Assembly: GCA_018399255.1 (NCBI GenBank)
Contig: JAGYPA010000009.1
Span: 1-64,000, forward strand
Length of the DNA: 64,000 nucleotides
DNA from: Spirochaetales bacterium
Lineage (GTDB): Bacteria > Spirochaetota > Spirochaetia > JABMQR01
Direction: 5' to 3'
The notes beneath the pieces are model-generated. The model saw only the letters and a program-made list of their open reading frames with translations, made no database searches and was not told where the DNA came from. Shown one piece after another: positions 4,417-46,917 of this stretch (within the stretch, counting starts at the first letter, position 1; every line of letters starts with the position of its first letter). Position numbers and translations under genes: made by a program.

Positions 4417-5625
4417 ATGCCCACCGCGGTTCTGCAGTTCAACAGTCTAGGTTTTTTGATTTCCGGCAGCAGCTATGCCCGGGATATTCTGGGTATGTTT
4501 TCAGATGATCTATCCCGGCTCTCTGCTGGCAGGTTGTTTCAGGCCTATCCTGAGCTTGTATCTGCTCTTGAGGAGAGAAGGGCCTGGGAGGGGGAGCTGA
4601 AGCTTGATCCGGCATCAGCCGCGGCATCATCCCTGGCCCTGTCATCAGCATCTGTATCGGCCCCGACTATAGATCCGGCAATAGCCCCGGAATCAGCTGA
4701 GACTGATGCGAGGTCTTTTCTTCTCCGGATCAGGAGACTGAAGGCGGAGGTGGTTCCTCTCTACGTTTTTTCCGAAGATGGTCTGCAGCCGTATCCCGTA
4801 AATGAAAAAGCCGAGGCTGCTCACTGTCCGGCTGTGACTCTGCTGCTTTCTGATATTTCAGGACTTCAGGAAGACTGTAATGAGCTGCAGCGGAACCTGA
4901 ACCGCAAAAATTCGGTTATCAGAGTTATTTCCCATGAACTGCGTTCGCCGTTCAGTACCGCCCGGCATTTTTTCAGTCTGATGGAGAGTCGTCTCAGTGG
5001 TGTTCTGCCTCATTCGTGGCCGGAGATGATCAGGGAAATGGCTGAGCTGTTTTCCCGCAGTTCTCTGCTGGTGGATACGATCAGTTCGCTCACGGACGAT
5101 ATATACGGGCCGCTTATCTGCCGCGAGGAGCTGGTGGTGCTCGATGAGGTGCTTGATAAGGCAGTTGCACAGGTGCAGTCCTACCTGGAGCTGAGACAGA
5201 TTGTGCTGGTTAAGAAATCCGAGCGTGATCTGCTGGTCCGGGGAGACAAAGATTTGCTTTATTCTGCGCTGCAGTATATACTCAGTGCTATAGCATCAGA
5301 ATTGGGGGGGGCAAGTTCCGCCAAGGGGATTACCCGGCTGGAGATCAGCTCTAATGTGACTGCGGCATATGTACGTCTGGCAGTTGCCTGCCAGGTCGAG
5401 AATGGGCAGACGAGGCAGCATTTTGCCCCCGACGTCTGTGAAATGATAAACAGCAAAACTTGGGGTACGGTTCAGGGAATCAGGACAGCTATCAGTTCTG
5501 CGGGGCTGTTTCTGTTTGCCGGCAGTCAGCTGCTCGAGAAGCAGGGGATCAGGCTGGAGCTTGAGCCTTCTGCGAGCTCCGGGACGGTTTTAACAATGCA
5601 GTTTCTGCGGTTTGCCGGGGTTTGA
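4417..5625 (+). CDS. Cytoplasmic sensor histidine kinase with divergent ATPase domain
   Basis: 402 residues with no membrane segment. Residues 1-150 look PAS-like, with an Ala/Ser-rich insert near residues 65-85. The H-box VISHELRSP places the phospho-accepting histidine at His173, in a HisKA domain with a clear dimerisation helix. The C-terminal region should be an HATPase_c domain, but the N-box reads LLYSALQYILSAI with no conserved Asn, and no DxGxG or GxGLG motif is visible; only the closing SSGTVLTMQF strand is normal. ATP binding is therefore doubtful and the protein may work as a pseudokinase or phosphatase partner. It lies 82 bases upstream of a LuxR-type response regulator, its likely partner. 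Confidence 0.75.
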   Translation: MPTAVLQFNSLGFLISGSSYARDILGMFSDDLSRLSAGRLFQAYPELVSALEERRAWEGELKLDPASAAASSLALSSASVSAPTIDPAIAPESAETDARSFLLRIRRLKAEVVPLYVFSEDGLQPYPVNEKAEAAHCPAVTLLLSDISGLQEDCNELQRNLNRKNSVIRVISHELRSPFSTARHFFSLMESRLSGVLPHSWPEMIREMAELFSRSSLLVDTISSLTDDIYGPLICREELVVLDEVLDKAVAQVQSYLELRQIVLVKKSERDLLVRGDKDLLYSALQYILSAIASELGGASSAKGITRLEISSNVTAAYVRLAVACQVENGQTRQHFAPDVCEMINSKTWGTVQGIRTAISSAGLFLFAGSQLLEKQGIRLELEPSASSGTVLTMQFLRFAGV

Positions 5626-5707
5626 TTCCCAAACGAAGCGAGAGGAGCGGAACCATCTTATAGTCAATTATGTGAGACTGGCTGAGTGCGGGAGTAAAAG
5701 TGGTAAT

Positions 5708-6379
5708 ATGATTAACGTAGTAATTGTAGATGATCATCAGGTGGTTCGTACCGGACTTATGGCGCTTCTGGAGAATGCTCCGGGAATTGAGGTGGCAGCT
5801 GAATTTGCAGACGGCAGTGATTTTTTGACGGCACTTCCGGAGCTCAGCGGGGTTGATGTGGTCCTGCTCGATATTTCGATGCCTAAAATGGGGGGACTGG
5901 AAGTCCTGCATGAGCTGGTTACGATGCCCAAGGCTCCCGGGGTTATTTTTCTTACCGTCTATCCGGAGGAGTCCTATGCTCTGCAGGCTATCAGAGCCGG
6001 GGCAAAGGGATATTTGACGAAGGACAGTTCGCGGGAGATGCTGGTGGAAGCGGTTACGGCGGTTGCCTATGGGGGGACGTTTCTCTCCGAAAAGATCCGG
6101 CAAGTTGATGTTCTCCGATAATTTTGCCGGGCTGAAGCCGAAGCGGAGGCGGAGGCAATTTCGTGGGATCAGCTCTCTTCCCGTGAACTGTCGGTGTTCA
6201 TTCATATCTGCCGGGGTCTTACAATTAAGGAGATTTCATTCAAGATGGAGCTTTCTCCCAAGACGATAAGCACCTACAAGACGCGTCTGATGGAGAAGTT
6301 GCAGGTTACGACGCTCTCCGAGCTGATCAAGATCGGTATAGCCTGGGGGCTAGTACCTAGTAGCCGGTTATTGCAGTGA
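5708..6379 (+). pseudogene. NarL/LuxR-type response regulator interrupted by an in-frame stop
   Basis: From ATG 5708 the frame encodes a complete receiver domain (VDDHQVV at the start, Asp in VVLLDISMPKMGG, Lys in YLTKDSS). It stops at TAA 6119-6121, 137 codons in. The same frame then continues without another stop through AEAEAEAISWDQLSSRELSV and a full LuxR helix-turn-helix (LTIKEISFKMELSPKTISTYKTRL) to TGA 6377-6379. Without the TAA it would be a normal regulator of about 223 residues. The stop falls in the interdomain linker. Options are a nonsense mutation, two compensating indels, or two separate polypeptides. The partner kinase is the preceding gene. Confidence 0.75.
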
Positions 6380-6692: not shown

Positions 6693-7225
6693 GTGCGGCA
6701 AGGTGTTCTAATCGGCCTGATGGCTGTTCTGCTGATTTGCCTCATAGCGATTCCCGATTTGGCGGGTGCAGAGGTCCGTGGAGCTGGCGGTTGCCTCGGC
6801 AGGGCTGGTGCTGCAGGCCTGGGAGGTTCCCTCGAAACATTAATCCGGGGAGCAGTATTCCTTTTTTACCGTCAGTATCGGCCAGGCGGCTGGCGGCCGG
6901 CTTCACTACATGGTTGACGGGATTGTCTGGCCGCAGAGCCTGAAGATTGTCGTTCATGCAGAAACAGCGATTCCAGATGGGCGCTGAGTGTTGAGGTGCT
7001 GGATTTTCCGGGAAGTTCGGCAGGCGGCGAGTATGGAACGGCGGTATCCGGGGCAGTTTCTGTCGGGTCAGATCCTGATTCACCGGGTACGCTGATTTGC
7101 CACATCGGGAACTGCGACACAGGCAGCGGAACGGCAGATGGTCCGCTGCTGTACAATCCCGGAATCTGGGATTCAGCAGCGGCGATATCGTAATCCGCTA
7201 TGCCCTGGTGGAGGAGTTGCTTTAG
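6693..7225 (+). pseudogene. Small secreted protein, frameshifted
   Basis: GTG 6693 starts a clear signal peptide (GVLIGLMAVLLICLIAIPDLAGAEV). After the cleavage region, coding character jumps between frames: ELAVASAGLVLQAW, FFTVSIGQAAGGRLHYMVDG, then a long stretch with LSVEVLDFPGSSAGGEYG and CHIGNCDTGSGTADG, ending in YALVEELL and TAG 7223-7225. Joined, this would be a secreted protein of about 175 residues, possibly of beta-sandwich type. I do not recognise the family. At least three indels separate the pieces. It is the first member of the 6.7-12.4 kb surface cluster. Confidence 0.5.
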
Positions 7226-7255
7226 GTTTTTATCTGATACGAGTGGCATAATTTA

Positions 7256-7307
7256 GTTATGTGTACATAACGGTTATGAGTACATAACGGTTATGTGTGT
7301 ACATAAC
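7256..7307. promoter_or_regulatory. Three consecutive palindromes (operator-like array)
   Basis: Three copies of GTTATG-N3/5-TACATAAC-type inverted repeats: GTTATGTGTACATAAC at 7256-7271, GTTATGAGTACATAAC at 7273-7288, and a version with two extra bases at 7290-7307. They are separated by single G residues, so the period is 17 bp. They end 69 bp upstream of the ATG at 7377. The arrangement looks like a cooperative binding site array for a dimeric regulator; the regulator is unknown. Confidence 0.5.
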
Positions 7308-7376
7308 TGATACTAGTGTATTAACGGTCGTTGATCGTTTGGCAGGTGCTAATTAATCATTTAAGGGGAGACACAC

Positions 7377-8027
7377 ATGAAGAAGAAAAATTTCATGGTT
7401 CTTATGATGGTTCTGGCCTTTCTCGTCGGGTCAGTGGGTTTGGTGATGGGAGGATTCGGCAACTGCACAGATGCAGTTGGGGTTTCTTATACATCATCCG
7501 GACAGGTTGCCTACTGCGTATGCTAAATAGTGGTCAAATAGCCGATATTATTAGTTACAATTTAGGAACCTGACAGCAGCTACTGCAGGAGCACAGGCTC
7601 AAAGTGGCGGAGCTGCGGCAGGAGAAGCTGCCAGCGGATTTCTTCGCGCATATTACTATATGGATATACTGATACATCTTATGAAATTACTATAGCTATA
7701 GCTGCAGATACAGGTGGATTCCTTGAGGCAGTTGTTGCAGTGAAGGTTCAGTAACAGATGCCGGTAATGATGATTCTGTTGTCATAACTGGTGGAGGAGG
7801 GACGCAGGAGATGCAGTACATACCGGATTAGCTACTGAATATCCTGGTAGTGGAAGTACTGTTCCAATAGGAACCACTGCAGCTGATTTTATTACTGGGA
7901 TTGATCAGCGAATACCTGGACTGGTACAGGAAATTCAGACGGTGCGCAAGTAGTTTATTATCTCGTTGCTGATCCGGAATCAACTGAATCTGTTACAGTT
8001 ACGTATACCTTACAGGCTGCAACCTGA
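7377..8027 (+). pseudogene. Small secreted, probably surface-exposed protein, frameshifted
   Basis: ATG 7377 has AAGGGGAG seven bases upstream and encodes a strong signal peptide (FMVLMMVLAFLVGSVGLVMG). The open frame ends after about 50 codons. Coding character resumes in shifted frames: AGAQAQSGGAAAGEAASG, YGYTDTSYEITIAIAADTGG, GLATEYPGSGSTVPIGTTA and VVYYLVADPESTESVTVTY, ending at TGA 8025-8027. The rebuilt product would be about 210 residues, rich in small and beta-prone residues, like a pilin-type or adhesin-type subunit. No family is recognised. The triple-palindrome array sits immediately upstream. Confidence 0.5.
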
Positions 8028-8154
8028 TTCTTTAATTTATAAATGAATCAATAGCCATTCAGTCAGACAGCAGTCAGCACATCTGCCTGGCTGAACAATT
8101 CTCAAGTGCACAAGTTATAATTAAACACTGATGATACGGGGATATGGGATTACA

Positions 8155-8471
8155 ATGATTTTGGAAAAAGTAAACGAAAGCTACTGGTTCTTATCATTGA
8201 CTATCTCTTTTCTCGTTTTTCGCTAGTGGAGCAGAATCGCTGCAACCGTAACTGATGTAGTTCCGTTATCAAGAATAGAATCAGATCAGACTCCTAGATA
8301 TTTTTAACAAAAACACTGCATCGATGGGAATTTATGGAACCATGCATGTTGGCACGGTGATCAAATACATGGACAGGCGCAAGCAGGGAGAGCGTACCAG
8401 ATTGCTCTATAAGTCATGATCCCGAAGTATTTCAGGAAGTAACTGCCAGTTTTGTACACGCTTATTTCTGA
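8155..8471 (+). pseudogene. Fragmentary secreted protein gene
   Basis: From ATG 8155 a hydrophobic leader (SYWFLSLTISFLVF) is followed, across frame changes, by TDVVPLSRIESDQTPRYF, NKNTASMGIYGTMHVGTVIK, YMDRRKQGERTRLLYKS and HDPEVFQEVTASFVHAY, ending at TGA 8469-8471. The pieces are continuous if single-base indels are allowed and would give about 105 residues. I do not recognise the family. Base composition from here to about 9.2 kb is clearly more AT-rich than the flanks. Confidence 0.35.
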
Positions 8472-8582
8472 AAACTCAGTAAGAGTGCAATACTTCAAAA
8501 GGTTAAGAATTATTAATATAGAAAAATAATAACTATTTCATTACCAATGATTTACCATGATTAAGTATTAAACAGAATTTAA

Positions 8583-9260
8583 TTGAGAAGTGAAAATACC
8601 ATATGGCTATACAGGACCAAAAACAAAAAAAATAATTGTATTAATAACATTACTGCTTGTCATTGGAATATTTTGCTCCATGCTCAGATTTCTATTACAA
8701 GCAATATGTTGAACATACCACGACGGAACCTGAAATATTTACTACGGAATCGTAAAAATCCAGAATCACGGAAAATAGGGAAATGAATCATCCGTTTGTA
8801 TCGTAGCGATTTTCTTTTCTATGCAGATGGATCCAATATTTGATGGTGAGCCCGGTACCCTCATCACGCTCTAATGCACCTTGGCTGCAATTGATTCACA
8901 GGAAGTTGTTGTTGTCTGACAAAAACTGCTGAAATCAGATATATTGTTAAAATCCCCCACAGGAAACACTTATTGGAACCTATTGAGTATGATCATGGTT
9001 GAAGCAATAACCGATTCGCTGCTTAACCCTGATTATAAGGCAGAAGAAGGCAAAGCTGGGATTACAGGCCAGCTTCCGGTTTGCTATTCAAATTGTAACG
9101 CACATTGGGGAAACTGGAATAAAAAGTTTAGAATTTACCAATCCCCTGTAATAAATACTACCTCTAGTTTATATAAATTAGAGGTAGACACAGAAAACAT
9201 CGGTGAGCGCTATATCAGCTTCATTCCTTACGTAGACCTCATTCAGATCGAGGACTCTAT
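8583..9260 (+). pseudogene. Unidentified gene remnant, AT-rich
   Basis: No single frame spans this stretch. Visible pieces are a hydrophobic segment near 8630-8700 (IVLITLLLVIGIFCSMLRF in one frame), FFSMQMDPIFDGEPGTLIT near 8815, and an open stretch from 8944 onward with CYSNCNAHWGNWNKKFRIYQ and YKLEVDTENIGERYISFIPY. It may be one exported protein gene broken by indels, or the 3' end of one gene joined to the 5' end of the next. I cannot name a function. Confidence 0.3.
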
Positions 9261-9261
9261 A

Positions 9262-12200
9262 TCATGTTTGAATCGCGCCGGCGCGGGCTCTATCCCGGCA
9301 ATCTTCGGTACGGATCCAGAGCCCCTTTCCCGATGTCCTTCCCGGCAAATATCGGGCTTTCCAGGTTAGCCGACGGCGGTGAGAACGACCTCTTTGGAGT
9401 CATCTATGCCCTTGAGTTCAAATAGAGCTGGAGGGGCAATGCGGTATCAGTATACGGATCGTGCGCTTCTTTCGCTGGTGCCCTTCTCCACCAACATTAC
9501 CATCTCCACCATCTCCACCATCTCCACCAACGCGGCGCTCTCTCTGCAGCCGAGGGCCCTGTTACTATTGAACCGGTTGGAGGAGGCGGACTCGATGCTG
9601 ATCCCCGATCCATCTTGTGATGGCGGTCTTCAGCGTGACCAACAACTCATCAGTGTTCAGAACCTGGAGCCGGTCCTCGTCCTGCCGGAGGGCTGGCGAA
9701 CCACCTCTCCGTTACCCCTGGAACTGAGTCCTGAAGATACTGACATGGTCTATCTCGGTTTTATCGTACCCCGCGAAGCCCTGGCTGGAGAGTGCACCGT
9801 AGGATTCACCGCAGCTGCGGAAGCCCATACTGGAGCATCGGCCGCATCGGCAGATTCCTTACACCATTGTCGAAGCATCCCTGCCGGTAACCGTACGGGC
9901 ACCTACAGCCTCTCCCGCAGCTGCTAACCCTTCCATCTCTGGTAATTCTGCCAGCGAAACCTACAGCGCCGGATTCGTCCTGACCAACGGCAGCAATGCC
10001 TGCCAGCGTCAGCCTGAAATAACCGGCACCCGGATATCCCCTCGAATTTGAAAGCACCTGCATAACCCTCGGCCCCGGAGAGACCCGCGAAATCACCATA
10101 CAGGCAAAAACCCCTCGATACCTTGCCCAAGATTATCAGCCATGAAATAACCATAAGTGCCCTTATGGAGGAAGAGGGGTTGGGGGCGGGCAGAAAGACT
10201 TACGGAGAGCCCGTGAAAGCCCGGGGCATCGAGCTCGGTAAGCGTCATCCCAGTAAAACCCGGCGGCGACCCCGGCACCGGTATCCGTAACTCCTCGTGG
10301 AACTTCTCTATTACTCATCAAAAGAAGAAGAACAGCCGCTGCAGAACAGCCTGAAACTTAGTGCAGCGGGTATATTGATGATACCGGACGCCATCGCCTC
10401 AGCTTCAGCATTGCCCCCGCCGGCCTTCCCCGACCCCGAATGGACTATTGCCGATACCGTATATTCACTCAACTACACTTATAAAGACAATTCCCTTGGA
10501 ACTTAGCGGCGGCACCGGGTCGTATGCCTATCCCGGCCTTGTGCAGCAAAGCACTTCCGGATGGGGAGCGCGCGGCACCATAGACCTCGAAAACGGAAAT
10601 AGGCAGCTATGCCGTATTCAGCACCGCCGAAGAAGTTCCCGACTACGGCATAGGCGGCCGAATAAAACGCGAGTTCGGCGAAGTGAATACCATCGAATTA
10701 CGCTTTGTGATGCCGGAAACGAGCTTTTCTAAGGCCTGGCGGGGGTGAAAAGCTTTCTGAGACCCTATGATGCCGCTAAATATCAGCCTGGAAGCCGCCC
10801 TCGGCTTCAGCGGACCGGAAGATTATGCCTACAGCCTTAACGCTGAGGAACGTAGCGAAGAAGAATACTCCTATACCTTCAGCATCCGGCTGGCTGGCCC
10901 CGACTTCAGCGGACCTCGCCGTCCCCGGCACCTACTGCTACGCAGCCAGCGGCACTCTCTCATCCTTTCCCGGCATATTGCTCTCCGGCAGCATAAAAGA
11001 GGAAAACCAACTTGCGCTTGATGCCGGCCAGAACACCGCGCTCCTTAACCGCACCACCAGCCTGCGGACCAGCTTCAGCCTCGGCGACGGCATCTCCTTC
11101 AAAATCAGCCAGCAGAACTCCGTCAGCATAACCTGCTTGCCGTACGACTGCTGACCGAGCAGAAGGAGGAGACTGCCATAAGCACGGGCTATTCGACGAC
11201 CTCCGTCCGACGGTTCAGCCAATCTTCCCGGTCCTGACTACCAATAATCGCATTGCGGCAATCAGGTATTTGCCGTCGACGCAGTATATCGACCCGATGA
11301 CAAATTGAACGTAACCGCAAAAATCAGCTTTGATGCCGGCAGCAGTCCCGGCATAACTGATGCCCTGATCGGCGGCAGTCTTGGCCTGTCGTACCAATGG
11401 GGCCGCGATACCGACTTGAGCGCCAGCCTGCGCACCTCGGTCCAGCCGTTCCGGGAAAATAGCGGCAGCAGCACAGTAACCGCTGGACTGCGCCACAACT
11501 CGGATACGCTCGGGAACTTCTCCCTGAACGGCAGCTGGACAACGTATCAGAATACCAACGAGGGGAGTTTTCGGGATAACCGCTTCCTACGCACGTCCCT
11601 TCCGCATCCCGACCGTTCTCAAATCCGATGTCGGCACGGTAAGCGGCTTTGTCTGCCACGTTGAAACCGCCGGAGAACGGCTGCCGGGAGTTATCATCAG
11701 CATAGACGAACAGACCACGATTACCGACAGTGACGGAAATTTCCATTTTCCCGCCGTTATCGCCGATCTCTACTATCTTCAGGTAAATGCCGCCGAGCTT
11801 GGAGAGAACTTATCCTTGAGGGTACGCTGCCGTAAGGAGGGAGGTAGCCGGAAGAGTGAAATTGTCCTCGAAATACCGCTTACCCGGCCGGCACACATTG
11901 AAGGCCGCCTGATCCGTATGGAAATAGACCCATCGGCAAGTATGTTTTCTCGCCGCAGTGTATCAGGAAGCCGGCGGTTTCGGTGGAATTCTGGTGGAAA
12001 TATCCGAGATTACGGAGAACGCCGTGAAGTTACCCGCTCCGACGGAACCTTCAGCTTCAAGGGGCTGGTACCGGGAATCTGGACGATAACCGTGTATGAG
12101 CGGGACTGCCGACAACCCATAATCTGGAAGAGACTATTTACACGTTGGAGCTGGCACCCGGAGAGACGGAACTGTCAAGCGATAGAGGTGCTGCCGATTC

Positions 12201-12393
12201 AGCGGGCGGTCAGGTTTTGCAGGAGGAGACATTGAACTGTAGCTGCAGAAGTGGAGACAAAAGATACGGACCCTGCCAGGGTGAGCGGCCTCGGCAAACT
12301 CAGGCTCTGCCCCAGATCCAGCCCCAGATCCAGCCCCAGATCCAGCCCCAGATTCAGCCCCAGATTCAGCCCCAGATTCAGGCTCTGCCGTAA
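9262..12393 (+). pseudogene. Large outer-membrane/surface protein gene, broken by many frameshifts
   Basis: Coding character runs continuously on the plus strand but changes frame a dozen or more times. In order I see: GLYPGNLRYGSRA and FPANIGLSRLADGGENDLFG (9270-9400); a beta-rich stretch with LPEGWRTTSPLPLELSPED and MVYLGFIVPREALAGE, like an NPCBM/COG1470-type domain (9680-9790); repeated beta-strand segments typical of a barrel (LGLSYQWGRDTDLSASLRT and TAGLRHNSDTLGNFSLNGSW, 11380-11540); then two carboxypeptidase-regulatory-like domains (GVIISIDEQTTITDSDGNF, and SDGTFSFKGLVPGIWTITVY near 12050). The frame of the last domain continues through PQIQ repeats to TAA 12391-12393. Whole, it would be about 1,000 residues. 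An usher-like or adhesin-translocating role is only a guess from the small secreted neighbours. Confidence 0.55.
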
Positions 12394-13108
12394 AATCAGA
12401 CTCTGCCTCACGGGATTTTTTCTGCTGGCAGGCTTTCTGCTTCCCGCCGGCTTGTGCGCCCAGAGCGAATACGTTGATATCAACCAGAACGGCATCGGTG
12501 CCGGCATCGTCATCGACCTTGGAGGCGGATCTTTCAGCGGGGCCTCCCTCGCTGCCGCCTATTCAAGCAACGGCATTCTCGATATCGGCATTGACCTGGG
12601 AATCGTCTCCCCGCGCCTGCCCGATATCACCTTTCCGGAATATCAGGGGTCGATCCGGTTCGGTTTCACCATCTTGAAGCAGGACCGCCTGATGCCGATA
12701 TCGCTCCTGTTTACCGGTGCGCTGCGGGCTTCGATCGCGTTGGGAAATGAACCCGGAGATGGGGGAGAGGATCTGCTGATGAGCGGGACGGGCCTGGGGC
12801 TCGGCATGGATCTTTTCCGGTTCTGGTTTCTCCGGCCCCGCTTTTACGGTCGTCTGGGAATGTGGATTGGCCACGTGTCGGATACGGTCATTACCGAACT
12901 GGAATCGGGTGCCCAGACAGCAAGCTATCCATCGAGCACCACGGTACGGCAGTTTTCCATCGGTCTGATGGCCGGTATTTCCTGGCGGCCGAATACGTCC
13001 AACCGGGGGGCAGCTATTTCCGGCGATCTTAGGGTCGGAATAGATGAGAAGGGAACCTTTCATCTGCTGCCGGCAATTACGGTAACCGTCGTGAGTGAAG
13101 AAATCTGA
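12251..13108 (+). CDS. Outer-membrane beta-barrel-like protein, start uncertain
   Basis: The frame is open from GTG 12251. The first 45 residues lie over the 12-bp repeat array and look artificial (SPRS/SPRF repeats). A signal peptide appears only afterwards (GFFLLAGFLLPAGLCAQSEY), and the mature part begins at about residue 67. It has alternating hydrophobic strands (IGAGIVIDLGGGSFSGASLA, YGRLGMWIGHVSD, QFSIGLMAGISWRPN) and ends in LLPAITVTVVSEEI, so a small 8-10-stranded barrel of about 215 residues is plausible. No ATG, GTG or TTG with a ribosome binding site stands just before the signal peptide, so either the start is the poor GTG or an indel hides the true one. Confidence 0.6.
   Translation: METKDTDPARVSGLGKLRLCPRSSPRSSPRSSPRFSPRFSPRFRLCRKIRLCLTGFFLLAGFLLPAGLCAQSEYVDINQNGIGAGIVIDLGGGSFSGASLAAAYSSNGILDIGIDLGIVSPRLPDITFPEYQGSIRFGFTILKQDRLMPISLLFTGALRASIALGNEPGDGGEDLLMSGTGLGLGMDLFRFWFLRPRFYGRLGMWIGHVSDTVITELESGAQTASYPSSTTVRQFSIGLMAGISWRPNTSNRGAAISGDLRVGIDEKGTFHLLPAITVTVVSEEI
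12310..12381 (+). repeat. 12-bp tandem repeat, six units
   Basis: Six adjacent 12-bp units, three of CCCCAGATCCAG followed by three of CCCCAGATTCAG. In the frame of the upstream surface protein they encode (PQIQ)n; in the frame of the downstream barrel they encode SPRS/SPRF. The copy number is a multiple of three bases, so changes would not shift either frame. Confidence 0.95.
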
Positions 13109-13132: not shown

Positions 13133-14077
13133 ATGAAAATACCAGTCCATTTGAAGCATAAGCCGGTCATTGTATCGGAAGCATATGACACCATAGGCGG
13201 CCGCAAATCGGTTCGAGCTGCGGCCAAAGGGCTTTCGCTCGGCATCGCAGCTCTGCTGTTCCTGCTGCTCATTTCCGGGACCATGCTTATTGCGGCCTCA
13301 GTCCGGCTTCAGAACGTTACGGACGGACTTGCGGTTCTTGATAAGAAGCTCCTCGATACGCTTGCCGCGAATGCTTCAGCAGACGCTTACAAAGCAGACG
13401 CTTACAAAGCAGATTTCATGACCGATTCTACAGATGATCCCGGGTCTGATGCTTCCTCTGCAGCAGGTTCCGGAGAACAGGAAGTGCTCATTGGTACCGT
13501 TGATTCAGCTCGGCTCGATTATCTGGAAGGTCAGATTCTGCAGCTTGCTTCTGCTCAGGAAGCTTTGGAAGCCGAGGGGCTGAAAGCAGTTGCTTCTCTT
13601 AAGGAGCAGCTTACGGCACAGCAGGAGCAGCTGGAAATCCGGCAGAATGAGTTGGATACCTTGCACGGAGGACTGAAGGCTCTTCAAGACCGTCTCGAAG
13701 CCAGTGCCCGCAAGTATGACACCCTGATCAACGACCTCTACGATCAGAATGAAACCCTCAAGGGAGACATTGCCGCCGTCGCCAGACAGAACGCCGCCCT
13801 TCAGGCAGAAATAGAAAAAATGAAGGCACAGAACCTCACCGTGAGTCAGGATCTGGAAAAACTCCGAAGAGCCGTTTTGACATTCCATAACATGGGATTG
13901 TTTGGTACAATACGTACAATAAATCGGGAAGGCATACTGCGCATTCTCGATTTGAAAGAAGAAAAACCCTATATGACCCAGGAAGAAGCCGCGGAAATAC
14001 TCAAACGGGAAGGATTTACCATCAGTACGTATGAGATTTTTCTCATTTATGGAGCATATTTTAATGAATTCAAGTAA
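13133..14077 (+). CDS. Single-pass membrane protein with long periplasmic coiled coil
   Basis: 314 residues. A 33-residue basic N-terminus is followed by one transmembrane helix at about residues 34-56 (LSLGIAALLFLLLISGTMLI). A low-complexity Asp/Ala/Ser linker contains a duplicated ADAYK motif (15-bp DNA repeat at 13379-13408). Residues about 120-255 are strongly coiled coil (heptad-rich Leu/Ala/Gln/Glu). The C-terminal 60 residues form a small helical domain (FHNMGLFGTIRTINREGILR, PYMTQEEAAEILKREGFTIS), which might be a DNA-binding-like or protein-binding fold. The family is not recognised. It lies between a beta-barrel and a hybrid kinase, 24 and 14 bases away, so it is likely part of the same unit. 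Confidence 0.75.
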   Translation: MKIPVHLKHKPVIVSEAYDTIGGRKSVRAAAKGLSLGIAALLFLLLISGTMLIAASVRLQNVTDGLAVLDKKLLDTLAANASADAYKADAYKADFMTDSTDDPGSDASSAAGSGEQEVLIGTVDSARLDYLEGQILQLASAQEALEAEGLKAVASLKEQLTAQQEQLEIRQNELDTLHGGLKALQDRLEASARKYDTLINDLYDQNETLKGDIAAVARQNAALQAEIEKMKAQNLTVSQDLEKLRRAVLTFHNMGLFGTIRTINREGILRILDLKEEKPYMTQEEAAEILKREGFTISTYEIFLIYGAYFNEFK

Positions 14078-30719: not shown

Positions 30720-30863
30720 TAGATCCTCCATCATATGTTAGCAGCAGGGTTACCGGGATGCAGGCATAAGGGCAAAAAAAACCCGCCTGGCATGAAGCGT
30801 TACTTTTTCCGGTTTCCTGTGAATAGTAATAATGTAATCAAACTTTATTCAGGCGTGAAGTGA

Positions 30864-30903
30864 TTTTAACTGATAGATAGGAATTTTAACTGATAGATAG
30901 GAA
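30864..30903. repeat. 20-bp direct tandem duplication
   Basis: Two perfect adjacent copies of TTTTAACTGATAGATAGGAA, between lon and the broken GDSL gene. The second copy abuts the GDSL stop codon. Confidence 0.95.
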
Positions 30904-30904
30904 T

Positions 30905-31705
30905 TTACCGTAAAAATCCATCATATCCCGAATCACCGAGGCTGCCCAGCATTTCCAGAACTGCCCGGGCGACTGCCCGGGCGATGATATCAGCTCCCTT
31001 TGTATTGGGGTGCAGTCCGTCAATGGTCACCGCGAGTTCCCGACTTCGGCTGAGCCTGTCCGCCTTTTCGTCGTCTCCTGTTCATAGGCGGCATCCCGGG
31101 CAAAAAGACCGGGAGCCTAACAGAGGAAAAAGCCTGCTCAGGGCCAGACGAACGGCTTCCTCCAGTTCCGGCTCGGGATCGATGCAGATAAGTTCCAGCG
31201 AAATGCAGAGGTTCCTGGATTTCCTTCGTTTACCCCTGCGCTTTTTTTCGTATTGAGATACGAATCAAGATCTTCCCCGGGAGCAGGGGAATTGGTCATA
31301 ACGGCAATTTTAGCCGAGAGAGATTCAGCGCGCCGGCGATATTCAGAATTTCAGTCAGCTCATCTGCAAGTCGGTCAATGAAGGCTTCCGGCTTCGAAAT
31401 TGGTTCCTGGCCAGGTTTGATCATTGCCCAGCCTGCTTCCAGGCAGGGCTGATGCTGGCCATGTAGGGGAGCAAGCAGATCGTTGCCGCTGCCTGCTTCA
31501 AGGATAAGCCCTGTATAGAACCGGGCATGTCGGCCGAGCAGGGAATGCGCGGGGCTCGGCGAAGCACACCGGTCATGGTGTGTCCCCGTTTACGCCCCTC
31601 GCATAGAAGGTCCGCCGCCTCCCTGGATCTGCAAGTTTTTGAGCCTTTTACATAGCTGACGCCAAGGGTGCCGGCTGTCAGGCTGTCTCCGAAAATTCCC
31701 AGCAT
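30905..31705 (-). pseudogene. GDSL/SGNH-type hydrolase, frameshifted
   Basis: ATG 31705 gives MLGIFGDSLTAGTLGVSY, with the GDS nucleophile motif. The other end, reading DGLHPNTKGADIIARAVARA with the catalytic Asp-x-x-His, runs to TAA at 30905-30907. The middle is scrambled between frames. The intact product would be about 260 residues, an esterase or lipase of unknown substrate. At least three frame changes are needed. It begins directly after the DUF1820 gene on the same strand. Confidence 0.65.
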
Positions 31706-32027
31706 GGCTTACCCGGTCCTTACTCTTTTCCGGCTTTCTTTTGCTGCTGTCTACAATGGAGAAAATTGCGGCAGAGTCTTTGCCCTGTGCAACAGCCTTA
31801 TCCAGCTCCTCAATCAGCGAAACAGCCTGAAACGGGATCATGATATGATTAGCCTGGCCGAAGGTCTTCTCGAAAAGTCTCCCGGTTGGGATCGATGATC
31901 AGAGAGCTGGCCGGCGGAAGGATAATATCCTTGATCGATACAAAATAGGGATGGGTCATATCGACTTTCCCGCACTCAGCATGACTTCCTTGCTTTTCCA
32001 GTTGAAATGAACCCTGTACAGAGACAT
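31706..32027 (-). pseudogene. DUF1820-family protein, frameshifted
   Basis: ATG 32027 gives MSLYRVHFNWKSKEVMLSAG, then the frame breaks. The rebuilt continuation is VDMTHPYFVSIKDIILPPAS, SLIIDPNRE, then NHIMIPFQAVSLIEELDKAV. This matches the pattern I know for the DUF1820 family of small conserved bacterial proteins of unknown role, about 105 residues long. Two single-base losses (one after GCGGGAAAG, one near the FRED segment) would restore it. It probably formed an operon with the GDSL hydrolase. Confidence 0.55.
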
Positions 32028-32148
32028 CAGCTACCTCACTGTTCCTGGAAAGTGTTGATAAAACACCAGTTTATACCTGCAATCAGAAAAAACGTTATAC
32101 TAACAAAAATAGATGCATTAGTACAGTATTTACGCTATACTGCATTCC

Positions 32149-34255
32149 ATGACAGCAACCCCCTGTCATGCAACCTCGACTGCGGTGCAGGCTGCCCCCG
32201 CTCACCGCCCATGCAGAAAACGGGAAACTGATCCGGGTAACCAATAATCCTGCCCGGGGCCGATATATGCGCGGTCTGCCAAGGGTTTCCGCACCCCGAT
32301 CTGCTCTTATCACCCGGAACGGATCACGAAGCCGTTGGTGCGAATTACGCCGAAAGAGCGAATCGGCAATGAAGAATCGGATCAGCTCCGGATTCCGGGA
32401 AGCTTGCTGGGACGAGGCCCCTCTCACTGGCCGCAGAAAAACTCCTCGGAGGTGCGTGAAAAATCCGGACCCGCCTCGATACTCCAGATAGGGAGGCTCA
32501 GGCTCCCTGCCGGCGCGCACAATACCGCCCTGCTGCTGCCAAGTGATTCCTGGCCCTTCGGCGGATATACCGAAACTACGGATCCTACAGCAGTCAGGCG
32601 GTCGATTTTCTCAACCATGCCTACCTTCGGAACCCGGGAAATCGGCATAGACGTCCCGGAACCTCCTGTCCTCACAGTATATCATCCTCTGGGGCTTCAA
32701 CCCGGCCGATACCCGTTTCGGCTGTGAAACAGAAGCGGTATTCCAGGGAACTGAAGCGACGCGGGACGCCGATCCTGGTCATCGATCCTCGCCGCACCCG
32801 GACCATCGACCTCTGCGGAGCGCAGTGGTCTGCCGATTCTTCCCGGTTCAGACGCAGCCCTGGCGAAGCCTCTATCTGGCTGTTTCTTGACAACGGCCAG
32901 GTAGATATGGAGCAGGTAAATCGACTGAGTACCGGATTTTCCGAGATAGCTGATTACCTGACCGGAATTACAGACGGCATCCCCAAGACCCCCGAATGGG
33001 CCGAAAAACAATGCGGAATAGCCAGTGATGAAATCGTTCAGCTCTACCCGCTCGCCGCTGCCAGACCGGCACCATTCACCCGGACTCCGATTCACGGATT
33101 CTCGGAGGGGAGGATACCAACCGTCTGCTGGCAATGCTCCAGCTGGCGGCCGGAAATACTGGAAAAATCGGCGGCAGTGCCGAGGGCAGTGGAACAAGAG
33201 TCCGAAAACCCCCGCTGCGGGCGACTTTCCGTACCCCCAACCCCGGCAGAAAGCAGCGTCCCCGTCAACAGCTGGGCCGATGCGGTCCTTGCTGGTCCCG
33301 GCGACAGCAGCGACTTCCAGCGCCCGTCTCCACTGGATTTACTCGGTAGTGGCAACTACGCGGTGCAGTCGATGACAGCGAAAAGGTCCGTAAAAGCCCT
33401 CATGAGCGTTAATACGGTAATATCACGAATTTTTCCTTACCCCCTACCGCAGAACTCTCCGATATTATCTTTTTCCCGCAAAGCAATGTTTCCCGAACGG
33501 GACCGATATCTGCTTTACCAACTCACCTGCTGCTCTACCCCGGCAGGCCGTGCCGCCAGCCGGATCGGTTAAGACCGACTATGAAATATTCAGCCTGCTC
33601 GCCGAAAAGCTTTGGTTTGGGGATGCCTTTACCGTAGGGCAGGATGAGCCTCAGCATCTGCAGGATTTTCTTCTTTGAGAGTGAGGTTGATGATCCCGAA
33701 GAATTCATGCGCACCGGCATCTGGGAGGGGGAGAGCCGGCCGTTCAACGGTCTTCAGGAGTTTGTCGCCGATCCTCAAGTATCCCCTTGCAACACCTTCG
33801 GACGCATTGAGCTGGTTTCCCAACTATGCGGCGCGGCAGCGGTTCCCCACTGTCAGAACCGATTGTGTCACCACGGTATCCGCTGCGGCCTCATAACCCC
33901 CACGAAAGTACCGGTATTTCGTTCCCAGCATACCAACGTGGAAAAACTGTCACGCCTCTGCGATGATCGGGTCTGCTTATGCATCCGCTGATGCCGGAGA
34001 GCGGGATAGCGGAAGGAGATCGGGTAAAGGTCAAGCGCCGGCGGAAAAATCAGCCTGATGGTTCGTCTATCCCCTGATATCGTACAGGGGGCTCGCTGAA
34101 TTCCGGTTCTGGAAAAGAACAGCGTTCGCTGACGGCGCTCATTATCCCGGTACAAATACCTGACGGATACCGTACCGACCTTGCCCAGTAACGGCTCGCG
34201 TACGCACACCAACCCGGAGGTTGCCGTATCGGTAATCTTGTCTGGTAATCACGAT
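32149..34255 (+). pseudogene. Molybdopterin oxidoreductase (DMSO-reductase family), frameshifted
   Basis: Plus-strand coding pieces line up with a molybdopterin-guanine-dinucleotide enzyme of about 690 residues. Near 32165 SCNLDCGAGCP gives the N-terminal 4Fe-4S cysteines, then ENGKLIRVTNNPARGRYMRG. Near 32750 RRGTPILVIDPRRTRTIDL matches the cofactor-binding segment, and near 33260 PVNSWADAVL is typical of the substrate domain. Close to 33990 GIAEGDRVKV matches the C-terminal cofactor-binding domain. Many frame changes lie between. An anaerobic respiratory or formate-linked reductase is likely; the substrate is unknown. Confidence 0.6.
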
Positions 34256-34318
34256 TCATGCTGAAAAACCTGCTGAAAGGCTACTTTACAAAAATAGCGT
34301 TGGAGTAGTATGGAGCAT

Positions 34319-34443
34319 GTTTTGGGGCAGAGGTGCGCTTTGCAGGCAAAGCAATTCGACCGGCGGTTATAGTCCGCGAGCCTTGCAGAAGGTTGATCCG
34401 GTGAGATTCCGGTACCGACGGTAGAGTCCGGAGAGGAGAAAAC
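34319..34443 (+). ncRNA. FMN riboswitch (RFN element)
   Basis: The conserved core is present in order: GGGGCAG at the 5' side, CGACCGGCGGTTATAGTCCG with GCGAGCC, then TTGATCCGGTGAGATTCCGG, TACCGACGGTAGAGTCCGG, and a closing GAGGAGAAAAC that pairs with GTTTT at 34319-34323. These are hallmark sequences of the FMN aptamer. It stands 230 bases upstream of ribH and is followed by an intrinsic terminator, so FMN binding should cause premature termination. A variable arm replaces the usual GGTGAAATTCCC stretch with a longer stem. Confidence 0.93.
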
Positions 34444-34503
34444 CCACTTGCTGTACGGGTACTGATATGACAGGCAATGCAGATTGATCGAATCGAGGCT
34501 GTT

Positions 34504-34540
34504 CTGCAGAATGCGTGATACATGCTGCAGAATGCGTGAT
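34504..34540 (+). repeat. Tandem duplication inside the riboswitch expression platform
   Basis: CTGCAGAATGCGTGAT occurs at 34504-34519 and again at 34525-34540 (21-bp period), with a partial third copy (GATGCGTGA) at about 34545-34553. It lies between the FMN aptamer and the terminator. Confidence 0.85.
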
Positions 34541-34598
34541 GCATGATGCGTGACAGGCCGGATTCAGTACAGCAGATGACATCTCCTTAATACAAGCC

Positions 34599-44907: not shown

Positions 44908-44958
44908 GGTGTTGCGCAACACCTTCTCTCAGTATACCATTAACTTTCACTCTGTCAA
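44908..44958 (-). promoter_or_regulatory. Promoter with 16-bp palindromic operator for the glycoside operon
   Basis: On the minus strand TTGACA (44958-44953), a 16-bp spacer and TATACT (44936-44931) form a strong promoter. Seven bases further on is the perfect palindrome GGTGTTGCGCAACACC (44923-44908), which would cover the transcription start. Its size, central CG and position are those of a LacI-family operator, and the operon carries a LacI gene at its end. Confidence 0.8.
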
Positions 44959-45103
44959 CAAAAGAAAGTCATAATTTTTCCTCAGGGTTTTTCTCCAGCT
45001 CAGCGACACCAGCTTGGAAAAAGTTGGTATTCCGTTACGAATGGCCAATGCGGGATCTGTTCATACCCTCGAGCGCTGGCCCAGATCTCCTTCTTGCCGC
45101 CGG

Positions 45104-45418
45104 TTATGCAGAAGGGCCTTTCTCCGCTATTATCTCTTTTTCATCACTGACATGATATGCTTCCTTGCAAGGAGGAGAAGCTTCCTCATCGAGTGGATAA
45201 AGCTCATCATCAACAAGATACTCCCACATTTCATTCTGATGAAGCCAGATGGGATCAGCATTTTTTAAGATGAAATCATCAATATCCATACCGTCGATTT
45301 CAGTCGGGCGTTTTACCCGCTTCTGCTTGCCGTGGATAAACACGGTCATATATTCTCTTCGGTTACGTTCCTTTCTGGCCTTTTCCTCAGCAGTCAACTT
45401 TCGTTTCGGTTTACCCAT
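45104..45418 (-). CDS. Small conserved-looking protein of unknown function
   Basis: 104 residues from ATG 45418; the longer start would lie in a G-rich tract. The N-terminus is very basic (KPKRKLTAEEKARKERNRRE), followed by VFIHGKQKRVKRPTEIDGMD and IDDFILKNADPIWLHQNEMW, then an acidic tail (VDDELYPLDEEASPPCKEAY). There is no signal peptide or membrane helix. It could bind nucleic acid through its basic end, which is a guess. It is transcribed away from the secreted protein at 45733. Confidence 0.55.
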   Translation of the reverse strand: MGKPKRKLTAEEKARKERNRREYMTVFIHGKQKRVKRPTEIDGMDIDDFILKNADPIWLHQNEMWEYLVDDELYPLDEEASPPCKEAYHVSDEKEIIAEKGPSA

Positions 45419-45732
45419 AATAATCTCTGCCCCCCTCCCCCCCCTCACGCACTAAAACGTAACTTTTTCCCTGTGGGAAAGTCAATGCATTGAAAACACA
45501 TGAATACTGCATTTGTAAAAGTTTTCCATAGATAAAGCCTGCCAAAGATTAACATATCTTAACCTGAATTACTCCGGAATCTTAACCAAAGGAACCAATC
45601 TTTAAACCATTGATTATTTCGGGCAGCAGCACGGCAGACACCCTCTGACAGAACAAACCTGCTCGAGAATAATGAACAGTGAAGCAGGTACAGCAAGACA
45701 CTAATATAAACACAAATATCAGGAGCGAGTAA

Positions 45733-46161
45733 ATGAAAAAACAGCAATTCCTATGTATCATACTGATGTTGACTGCTGCCGTCGCAGCATCTGCACAGGG
45801 AACCCAGGATATGGTCAGCGGGGCAGCCGGCAGCCGCAATACTACCGGCAGCAGAGAAACGGTACAGATAACCGGCATCCTGGAGATACAGGAACAGACC
45901 GTGCTGCTCGTCACTCCAGACGGAGCGTACACGCTTTTCGCCCCCCCATCCAGAAGCCAGATACAGGACTATGAACGGTTTAACGGAGTCGAAGCCGCAG
46001 TATCCGGGATACTATTTGAACTTGACGAGAACTGTGCTGAAAGCACCTATACCTGTCTAGGGCAGATTGTCATACAGACAGCACGTATGGGCAGTGAAGA
46101 AATCACTTTTAACGCAGCGCGACAGGGTGCCGGCAGGTCAGAAAGCGGAGCAGGGAAGTAA
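45733..46161 (+). CDS. Small secreted protein of unknown function
   Basis: 142 residues with a clear signal peptide (QQFLCIILMLTAAVAASAQG). The mature part holds a compact beta-rich region (VQITGILEIQEQTVLLVTPD, YTLFAPP, VEAAVSGILFEL) resembling a small OB-like fold, with two cysteines (near residues 99 and 105) that could form a disulphide. AGGAGCGAG lies before the ATG. The family is not recognised. The next gene, convergent, is an aminotransferase remnant. Confidence 0.7.
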   Translation: MKKQQFLCIILMLTAAVAASAQGTQDMVSGAAGSRNTTGSRETVQITGILEIQEQTVLLVTPDGAYTLFAPPSRSQIQDYERFNGVEAAVSGILFELDENCAESTYTCLGQIVIQTARMGSEEITFNAARQGAGRSESGAGK

Positions 46162-46202
46162 GCGCAGCATTACCAGCGGAGTGGAAAATATTCTGGACCT
46201 GT

Positions 46203-46917
46203 TTATGAGCTGATCCCCCGCTGGCGAAGATTTTCCATATACTCCCGCATAGCAGCATTTCCAGCTTCCACAATTTTTCTGCCGAACCCGATCCGCCCCC
46301 GCAGCGCAGCCGCAGCAAGATACTCACTCGGCGCAGAATTGCATATTGAAAGATAATGCTTATATCGTTCCATCCTCTGCAGCACATCCCGATCCCTGGA
46401 CATGATCCAGCCGATACGCAAACCCGGCAGCCCGTAGGCCTTGGACATCACATTGAGCGACAAACCCCGCTCATAGACATCGCCCACCTGCGGCAGACGG
46501 ATCGACTCATCCCGCTCAATAAGCCGGTACACCTCGTCGCTGAACAGATAGAGCCCGCGTTTCCGGCAGAGCCCGACAAGCTCATCAAAACGACCTCTCT
46601 CCAGAACAGACCCCGTCGGATTGTTGGGAAAATTGATCGAAACAAGCTTCGTATTAGGCCTCAGCGCAAATATCCAGAGGAATCGTCTCGGAAGCCTGAT
46701 AATTCGGAACCACCACCACCGCATGATCATCCTTGTCGAGAAGCACCCGCATAGCAGCATAAATCCCCTCTTCCGCTCCGGCAAAGCAGAGAACATCGGA
46801 AGGGGAGGCCGATTCATACGTACGGGCAATCTCCTCCCGCAAATCCATAGCCCCGTAAGACTCAGTATATCCCCGGCAATCCTGACTAAAAAATCTTGAC
46901 CCGGAAATCTTTACATC
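46203..46917 (-). pseudogene. Class I/II aminotransferase remnant, truncated and frameshifted
   Basis: The minus strand encodes GYTESYGAMDLREEIARTYE, VLCFAGAEEGIYAAMRVLLD and VVVPNYQASETIPLDICA, then after a frameshift near 46660 the PLP-fold pieces KLVSINFPNNPTGSVLERG, LFSDEVYRLI and NVMSKAYGLPGLRIGW, with the PLP lysine in the SKAYG motif. The first about 60 residues and the last about 100 residues of a normal aminotransferase are missing. Unlike the other broken genes here, whole ends are lost, so this looks like genuine decay. Confidence 0.75.

Follow-up and report, generated by a model that had tools for sequence, protein, structure and literature searches.

The locus at 6.7-12.2 kb of the analyzed window (64,000 bp of contig JAGYPA010000009.1 of a Spirochaetales bacterium, assembly GCA_018399255.1) probably belongs to a chaperone-usher-like fibre system that is widespread among two-membrane phyla and apparently undescribed, with protein families of a different kind; term matching among open-access PubMed Central papers found no paper describing it. 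As judged from sequence, this part of the window is the ordered remains of subunit genes, a chaperone gene and a gene for a platform of about 900 residues, spread over three reading frames; on the same basis, the chaperone is not recognised as a PapD family member, nor the platform as a PapC family member. The features of the locus and its surroundings are as follows:

4417-5625, + strand: histidine kinase gene, intact, a single 402-aa ORF (function by sequence reading); upstream context, possible regulator
5612-6379, + strand: LuxR-type response regulator, ORFs 5612-6121 and 6194-6379 (function by sequence reading); context
6693-7195, + strand: sA fibre-subunit-like remnant with a signal-peptide-like leader (tblastn and sA profile)
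7260-7317, + strand: imperfect direct repeat in three copies, each about 22 nt long, 5' of the second subunit gene (repeat search)
7377-8027, + strand: second sA subunit remnant with leader and C-terminal strand (tblastn and sA profile)
8790-9425, + strand: periplasmic chaperone remnant in broken frames (tblastn, profile pieces and whole-genome search)
9605-12220, + strand: usher-like outer-membrane platform gene, frame-broken (ordered profile pieces; tblastn E = 5.6e-32)
about 12386-13108, + strand: small outer-membrane-barrel-like protein, intact, in a single frame (tblastn E = 1e-30 to 1e-45; barrel by sequence reading)
13133-14077, + strand: coiled-coil-like accessory protein, intact (tblastn E = 2e-27; Pfam DUF6530, E = 1.9e-10)

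The receiver and DNA-binding parts of the LuxR-type regulator lie in separate frames. Within the first subunit remnant, positions 6984-7151 resemble a subunit of locus L010 (tblastn, E = 2.7e-4), and the sA profile matched 7011-7148 (E = 8.5e-4, the search set being small). The second remnant was identified more strongly (sA profile, E = 6.2e-9), and its positions 7911-8018 had 59% identity to a subunit of locus L009 (tblastn, E = 3.5e-8). The starts of the direct repeats between the two are spaced by 17 and 19 nt; the pattern derived from them had two matches genome-wide, both at the repeats themselves, which are possible regulator sites. The chaperone remnant covers positions 55-266 of the 266 of the profile and resembles the chaperones of loci L008, L009 and L010 (tblastn, E = 4e-11 to 1e-15), while the profile search gave no recognisable match to the 5' part of the gene in the window. 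The platform gene appears, from its profile matches, to be near-complete yet frame-broken: pieces corresponding to positions 40-923 of the 945 of the family model follow one another in order in three frames, several of them being singly weak, with a few weak off-order matches as well. In L008, L009 and L010, too, the small barrel gene comes next after the one for the platform, and the accessory protein has a conserved C-terminus and includes the first 41 residues of DUF6530. The earlier note, made from the window alone, had described small frames with signal-like leaders, an AT-rich middle at 8.0-9.2 kb, a large broken surface-protein gene with beta-sandwich, barrel and two carboxypeptidase-regulatory-like domains, and an outer-membrane barrel following it. 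All of these descriptions held: leaders, assessed by eye and with a simple script, are present in both subunit remnants; GC content was 0.364 at 8001-9000 compared with 0.466 and 0.531 in the neighbouring kilobases; and in intact platform relatives, NEW3/Ig-like domains at the N-terminus are accompanied by a barrel and both carboxypeptidase-regulatory-like domains.

Intact clusters were present in genomes of the same class, and a family scan of species genomes confirmed 178 stretches, 80 of which, from about 20 phylum-level groups, were kept. It should be noted that a short peptide pattern from the F1 strand of the chaperone served to choose these 80 loci, so that the conservation of the F1 strip is due in part to the selection. 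The platform gene stood beside the chaperone gene in 79 of the 80 loci, and profile searches placed subunit genes upstream in all 67 loci with room for them, as well as in all 15 loci with room that had been left out of profile building (the tail pattern alone misses subunits in 16 of the 67, and the counts reported here are those of the profile searches). In the control, none of 8474 reversed ORFs matched the subunit profiles, and sA matches lay on the plus strand in 156 cases and on the minus strand in 2. Gene-by-gene reading of five loci gave subunits, chaperone, small barrel and accessory proteins. A plasmid of Deinococcus deserti (plasmid 2, DEIDE_RS15110-RS15125), taken from another collection, had the order sA-chaperone-platform-sA, and in three Deinococcus records the genes of the system are annotated mostly as hypothetical proteins; other cultured carriers, going by record titles, are Thiocapsa marina, Draconibacterium sediminis, Orenia metallireducens and Maribellus luteus. 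The system was found in 16 of 394 genomes in a class-level draw and in 2 of 392 in a phylum-wide draw, the genomes differing between the draws. Chaperone and platform distances were correlated (r = 0.893; highest of 1000 permutations, 0.154), which is weak evidence, since adjacent genes have a common history anyway. The checks proposed in the earlier note, for intact clusters in relatives and for chaperone and usher folds, turned out positive (the folds as predictions by AF2, Foldseek and VIA), and exported-protein features and a conserved gene order, the lack of which it had named as refuting, were both found. Its suggestion of a spirochaetal surface-fibre or adhesin secretion locus is largely supported as regards the small subunits and the large platform, but the system is not restricted to spirochaetes.

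The chaperone is predicted to have a two-domain PapD-type fold (AF2 model of the L059 protein, pLDDT 92.9). The model is nearest to WxLIP, and PapD-type chaperones come second among bacterial proteins: the top Foldseek match was the Enterococcus protein EfmWxLIP1 (PDB 9i25, with 9i1y; for 9i25, E = 2.3e-13, TM-score 0.48 of the query), the CFA/I chaperone, YadV, CsuC, FimC and Caf1M followed at E = 2.5e-9 to 1e-7, and VIA gave Z = 16.8 to WxLIP and 12-13 to FimC and CfaA. Unrelated Ig-type structures also ranked high, human CEP192 being the fourth Foldseek match and a ciliary chain, aligned over one domain only, the third in VIA. In sequence, WxLIP was the only PDB match of the chaperone profile below E = 0.4 (E = 3.3e-6, profile positions 98-266; next 0.42). 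The two Ig-like Pfam domains of WxLIP, WxLIP_PGBD and WxLIP_HBD (DUF916 and DUF3324), matched 37 and 11 of the 80 chaperones, respectively, at E of at most 1 (best 2.2e-6 and 6.6e-4). WxLIP_PGBD had no match in any of 21 genomes of the window's side, although G018 and the genome of the window hold the chaperone; the control genomes of Thermotoga maritima and Lactococcus lactis did match. In WxL-WxLIP clusters, as here, small exported partners adjoin the chaperone. In contrast to WxLIP, the L059 model has a strand as its last element (residue 269 of 270) and no C-terminal transmembrane helix; WxL is absent among the Pfam families listed for sA (25 of 33) and among all 14 for sB; and a large barrel protein is a constant neighbour here. 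Comparison with eight E. coli K-12 chaperones gave an hhalign probability of 37, without profile-level homology, and the Pfam families listed for the 80 chaperones (25 of 51) do not include PapD_N.

The platform was modelled with a pLDDT of 87.4 and a pTM of 0.63. Its best eight Foldseek matches were all FimD (E = 6.7e-13 to 7.5e-11; PapC, 1.2e-10), with low TM-scores of 0.27-0.30 of the query and an rmsd of 15-20, and ranks nine and ten were unrelated Ig-type ciliary proteins. VIA aligned PapC to residues 258-900 of the model (Z = 16.4), and many porins scored level with ushers for the barrel. Two beta domains (about 712-808 and 821-899) follow the predicted barrel, as two C-terminal domains do in known chaperone-usher pathways. 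Known ushers have a 24-stranded barrel with a plug. In the model, up to 26 strands are predicted at residues 254-707, of which three are short and less confident. Nothing of the size of a plug stands out as an insertion among these strands, but a small inserted element may lie at residues 287-346, where three short strands coincide with lower pLDDT. CarboxypepD_reg matched all 45 platform proteins at E of at most 1 (best 3.5e-18). Neither Usher, PapC_N, PapC_C nor TcfC is among the 25 of 74 Pfam families listed for these proteins, the N-terminal part consisting of NEW3/Ig-like domains instead, and hhalign against the E. coli K-12 ushers gave a probability of 5.6. Of 12 genomes of the same class that hold the system, 11 had no match to Pfam Usher (PF00577), and the match in the twelfth (G431) lies apart from the system.

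The same data bear on the reading, improbable but the likeliest of the alternatives for the system as a whole, that it is a very divergent archaic or alternative chaperone-usher member whose novelty is confined to its sequences. The predicted PapD-type two-domain fold is common to the known classical, archaic and alternative pathways (FimC/FimD, CsuC/CsuD, CfaA, EcpB/EcpC). The reading agrees with the subunit-chaperone-usher order, identical to that of fim, and with the CFA/I chaperone (class 5, alternative) being the nearest PapD-type protein by Foldseek. In addition, the C-terminal domain of EcpC (Pfam TcfC and CooC_C) also matches CarboxypepD_reg (E = 1.2e-4), and CooC_C matched 3 of the 45 platform proteins weakly (best E = 0.021). 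However, WxLIP is nearer than every PapD-type chaperone, and a direct link of the platform to EcpC was rejected, as the alignment is the shared carboxypeptidase-like domain only, 41 columns with a probability of 33. A proline of strand D1 is said, in a passage of PMC4654587, to be the sole invariant residue of the chaperone-usher superfamily; at the candidate columns 99, 105 and 106, whose equivalence comes from a weak alignment and is thus uncertain, proline occurs in 54, 46 and 54 of the 80 chaperones. Pro119, present in 79 of 80, sits past the next strand.

The subunits form two related families, sA and sB, with a constant C-terminal strand; a locus usually has several sA and one sB, and 256 of 271 profile matches finish within 10 residues of the C-terminus (one ORF may count under both profiles). 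A profile-level link to E. coli K-12 pilins was rejected, the hhalign probability being 24 over 11 signal-peptide columns. Searches of Pfam, NCBIfam (five chaperone-platform pairs) and PDB sequences (sA, chaperone and platform) gave no named-family membership for subunits, chaperone or platform.

From the family conservation and gene order, both computed, and from the predicted folds, we infer export, strand donation, polymerisation and a fibre, in part by analogy with FimD and PapC. The sA and sB subunits would enter the periplasm through Sec, as their leaders suggest, and each would be capped there by a soluble chaperone with two domains and the WxLIP/PapD fold, probably through a strand lent from the F1-G1 hairpin of chaperone domain 1. 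This strand lending is suggested by the fold, by the conservation of the hairpin and by the WxLIP precedent, a beta hairpin of WxLIP being predicted, in PMC10599100, to insert into WxL. As in FimD and PapC, the Ig-like domains of the platform would then receive chaperone-subunit complexes on the periplasmic side, and the large barrel would pass the subunits across the outer membrane while strand exchange links them into a polymeric surface fibre. Somewhat less probable still than a divergent chaperone-usher member is surface display or anchoring without a polymer, in which the barrel shows single chaperone-delivered subunits, like WxL proteins on Gram-positive walls. For WxLIP, to which the chaperone is nearest, the same paper proposes a role in keeping WxL proteins on the cell wall and not in pilus building, and 8 of the 67 loci have one upstream subunit only. 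However, the other 59 have two to seven upstream subunit ORFs, and 24 loci have extra subunits directly 3' of the platform, both expected of a multi-pilin polymer (L060, where the platform comes first and the following subunits are the ordinary set, was excluded from the 24). A conduit like MtrB or a porin, with neighbours belonging to an electron-transfer or transport complex, is very improbable: VIA ranked MtrB (6r2q_B) first for the barrel region (Z = 20.5, 417 residues), but FimD came first in Foldseek, no cytochrome or other conduit partner was recognised by eye among the genes of the five loci mentioned above, and the platform has additional Ig-like domains at both ends.

Within the fibre-system reading, the state of the window copy is a separate matter. 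No ORF of at least 200 codons occurs between about 6.3 and 11.5 kb of the window. Long ORFs are also missing at 30.7-32.1, 33.6-34.6 and 44.9-46.2 kb and from 3 of 9 readable stretches on other contigs of the genome (12 fetched); thus, the breakage is not unique to this locus. For this copy, a functional locus with errors of assembly or sequencing and a decayed paralogue appear about equally probable. Errors are favoured by these other broken patches, by the kept order and length of the platform gene (positions 40-923 in 2.6 kb), by the intact genes 3' of it, and by its last 213 codons, which are open and have 26-36% identity to three intact copies that are themselves 30-39% identical to one another over the same part. 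On the other hand, the window is mostly clean coding sequence, and the 5' part of the chaperone gene and the preceding stretch are unrecognisable and low in GC, as in relaxed sequence. The AT-rich stretch is mostly the broken chaperone gene (about 8.79-9.42 kb), 8.03-8.79 kb being without assignment. An intact paralogue of the cluster on contig C21 of the same genome would make the loss tolerable, and this paralogue could yet serve the organism despite the broken window copy.

According to a passage of PMC4654587, the range of chaperone-usher pathways in 2015 comprised Proteobacteria, Cyanobacteria and Deinococcus-Thermus, and a survey of other secretion systems from 2016 states in part that some environmental clades lack every system known to it and that novel ones may remain (PMC4793230). 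If the proposed reading is true, the system would provide a fibre-assembly route for Spirochaetota, Bacteroidota, Planctomycetota, Verrucomicrobiota, Synergistota, Armatimonadota and others. With about as much for the idea as against it, the system may be a separate chaperone-usher-type lineage of about 20 phylum-level groups of two-membrane bacteria that shares its chaperone with Gram-positive WxL clusters, so that Gram-negative pili and Gram-positive WxL display may both go back to a single ancestral chaperone that donated strands. The family would tie WxLIP to PapD-type chaperones, and the origin of both would thereby become testable.

Mapping back from intact relatives resolved the broken region of the window, and the genes that follow it, into the features listed below.

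Window 6.7–7.2 kb: subunit remnant 1
Window 7.4–8.0 kb: subunit remnant 2
Window 8.8–9.4 kb: chaperone, broken
Window 9.6–12.2 kb: platform gene, broken
Window 12.4–13.1 kb: small outer-membrane-barrel-like protein, intact
Window 13,133–14,077 (13.1–14.1 kb): coiled-coil-like protein, intact

The contig holding the window, C236, belongs to a draft genome of 4.4 Mb (246 contigs, 90.5% complete). ORFs of at least 200 codons were absent from about 6.3–11.5 kb, and three-frame translation revealed that this stretch is coding-like piecewise. When one open piece of the window was searched against 60 genomes, its own among them, matches with intact frames were found in five, namely, a second copy in the same genome and copies in four others. 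The second copy was intact, with an open frame of 967 codons; its contig, C21, starts at the chaperone and so covers the paralogous cluster only from that gene on. A similar cluster occurred in each of the four other genomes, combining small exported proteins with two larger ones, of about 270–290 aa and about 900–1100 aa; intact copies are thereby present in relatives as well as in the same genome.

The broken platform gene retained its order and length; its last 213 codons were open, with 26–36% identity to three intact copies, which had 30–39% mutual identity over the matching part. Neither the chaperone's 5′ part nor the 0.5–0.7 kb of the window ahead of it was recognisable, and genes downstream of the broken platform gene were intact. 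The AT-rich middle described in the earlier note was borne out by the low GC measured at 8–9 kb. The breaks may represent decay of one paralogue or assembly error. Patches without long ORFs were also found elsewhere in the same genome (12 test stretches, three consisting wholly of N being left out). Three further window stretches (30,738–32,097, 33,570–34,579 and 44,940–46,205) lacked ORFs of 150 codons, and the ORFs bordering them resembled, by eye, molybdopterin oxidoreductase and aminotransferase in pieces; such ORF-poor stretches with gene pieces at their borders indicate that the frames of this genome are broken in patches.

Just 5′ of the second subunit gene, at 7260–7317, a direct repeat occurred in three imperfect copies whose starts were separated by 17 and 19 nt; the pattern derived from these copies had two matches genome-wide, both there, and the copies are possibly regulator sites. 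Repeats of 12 nt (at least six units, 12,297–12,392) were located at the ORF start of the small outer-membrane barrel protein. A similar barrel-like protein came next after the cluster in loci L008, L009 and L010. The coiled-coil-like protein lay downstream of the cluster in the window, L009 and L010, and its conserved C-terminus had YFNEF/YK as the last residues; in L010 the protein was fused to a full DUF6530 domain, and in L009 it was adjoined by a collagen-repeat protein.

In the class draw the chaperone profile matched 16 of 394 genomes, and in the phylum draw two of 392; 12 of the 16 class-draw matches were near full-length, and those of G517 (cut by a contig end), G524, G528 and G538 were partial or weak. 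The platform gene was found in 12 of the 13 same-class loci examined, with only a piece at the contig end in L037; the one locus without it, L040, was cut by a contig end. When 84,980 species genomes were scanned with a chaperone alignment of 12 rows and a peptide pattern, 189 stretches matched and 178 of them were confirmed, a number that is a lower bound since the pattern sits in one chaperone strand; conservation of this strip is biased because the strip itself was the search pattern. The best 80 of the 178 loci, grouped by hand from their titles, fell into about 20 phylum-level groups, the largest being Bacteroidota (23) and Spirochaetota (9); five were unclassified. The platform lay beside the chaperone in 79 of these 80, some cut by contig ends; the locus without it (L056) was on a 3.9 kb contig, and in L060 the platform was first in order. 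A separate plasmid search revealed a complete row of subunit sA, chaperone, platform and sA on plasmid 2 of the cultured bacterium Deinococcus deserti (L128, DEIDE_RS15110–RS15125), annotated as hypothetical, 'FimB/Mfa2 family fimbrial subunit', 'carboxypeptidase regulatory-like' and hypothetical, respectively. Plasmids of two other Deinococcus strains carried more divergent versions (L129, L130).

The two subunit families, sA and sB (alignments of 49 and 28 sequences, respectively), were mutually related (profile comparison, probability 96.8, E = 2.9 × 10−10). Pfam gave no clear family for either among the matches listed, and a sequence search of PDB gave no clear match for sA. In both, the C-terminus is formed by a constant strand of the type TVTFTLTD or YSTTITYTV, and 256 of 271 subunit profile matches finished within 10 residues of the C-terminus. 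Profile searches detected at least one subunit gene ahead of the chaperone, in the same orientation, in every one of the 67 loci having over 1.2 kb of upstream sequence, including all 15 of them that gave no sequence to the profiles; none of 8474 reversed ORFs matched. Further subunits lay directly 3′ of the platform in 24 loci (25 with L060, which was set aside). The tandem sA genes and the single sB beside the chaperone may encode the major and minor components of a fibre. The C-termini resemble those of pilins by eye only, and profile comparison with E. coli K-12 pilins revealed no link.

The chaperone model (L059; 80-sequence alignment, pLDDT 92.9) had two Ig-like domains. In Foldseek, Enterococcus faecium WxLIP, from the WxL surface-protein clusters of Gram-positive bacteria, took ranks 1–3, human CEP192 was fourth (E = 8.9 × 10−10) and PapD-type chaperones followed from the fifth on. 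VIA gave Z = 16.8 to WxLIP, 12–13 to FimC and CfaA, and 12.9 to a ciliary single-domain match. WxLIP was also the only PDB sequence match below E = 0.4 (E = 3.3 × 10−6), and profile comparison with K-12 chaperones gave no significant match. The last two domain-1 strands (127–137 and 157–166) are joined by a low-confidence loop and, judging by strand order, would hold the place of the F1–G1 donor hairpin of PapD chaperones. In the second strand, outside the search pattern, Arg157, Gln161 and Thr164 were conserved in 80, 78 and 72 of 80 sequences, respectively, and their equivalents were invariant in 12 chaperones found without the pattern. For WxLIP itself, insertion of a strand of a hairpin into WxL has been predicted (PMC10599100). 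The chaperone model lacks the C-terminal transmembrane helix of WxLIP. The WxLIP_PGBD model matched the Thermotoga maritima control genome, which may have a related chaperone.

The platform model (70-sequence alignment, pLDDT 87.4, pTM 0.63) began with a signal-peptide-like helix followed by two Ig-like domains; a barrel with as many as 26 strands (residues 254–707) came next, ahead of two C-terminal domains. The N-terminal domains were NEW3-like; at E up to 1, NPCBM_assoc matched 34 of 45 proteins and CarboxypepD_reg all 45. Foldseek ranks 1–8 were all FimD (TM-scores 0.27–0.30 of the query), followed by two ciliary proteins and then PapC. Since VIA ranked MtrB first (Z = 20.5), with several porins level with PapC (Z = 16.4 over residues 258–900), the barrel resembles that of ushers without being diagnostic. 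PMC8410936 describes ushers as comprising a 24-stranded barrel, a plug, an N-terminal domain and two C-terminal domains; no plug-sized insertion was apparent in the model, although residues 287–346 could hold a small one. The Pfam Usher model found nothing in 11 of 12 genomes carrying the system, and profile comparison revealed no link to K-12 ushers. Chaperone and platform distances were correlated across 70 loci (r = 0.893; maximum of 1000 permutations, 0.154) and among distant pairs (r = 0.634), which partners would be expected to show, as would any adjacent genes.

Since gene set, gene order, leaders, folds and barrel all fit, the cluster is probably a chaperone–usher-like fibre assembly system, and the earlier proposal of small subunits with a large assembly platform is consistent with these features, the folds being predicted. 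No prior description was found in open-access papers; one may exist elsewhere. The system is not a recognised member of the chaperone–usher pathway, because the defining families find neither chaperone nor platform. The strand-D1 proline of the chaperone–usher superfamily (Pro in at most 54 of 80 sequences at the candidate positions), the number of barrel strands and the plug point in neither direction. Its likeness to that pathway in working exceeds demonstrable membership, and there is an even chance that it constitutes a separate lineage tied to WxLIP.
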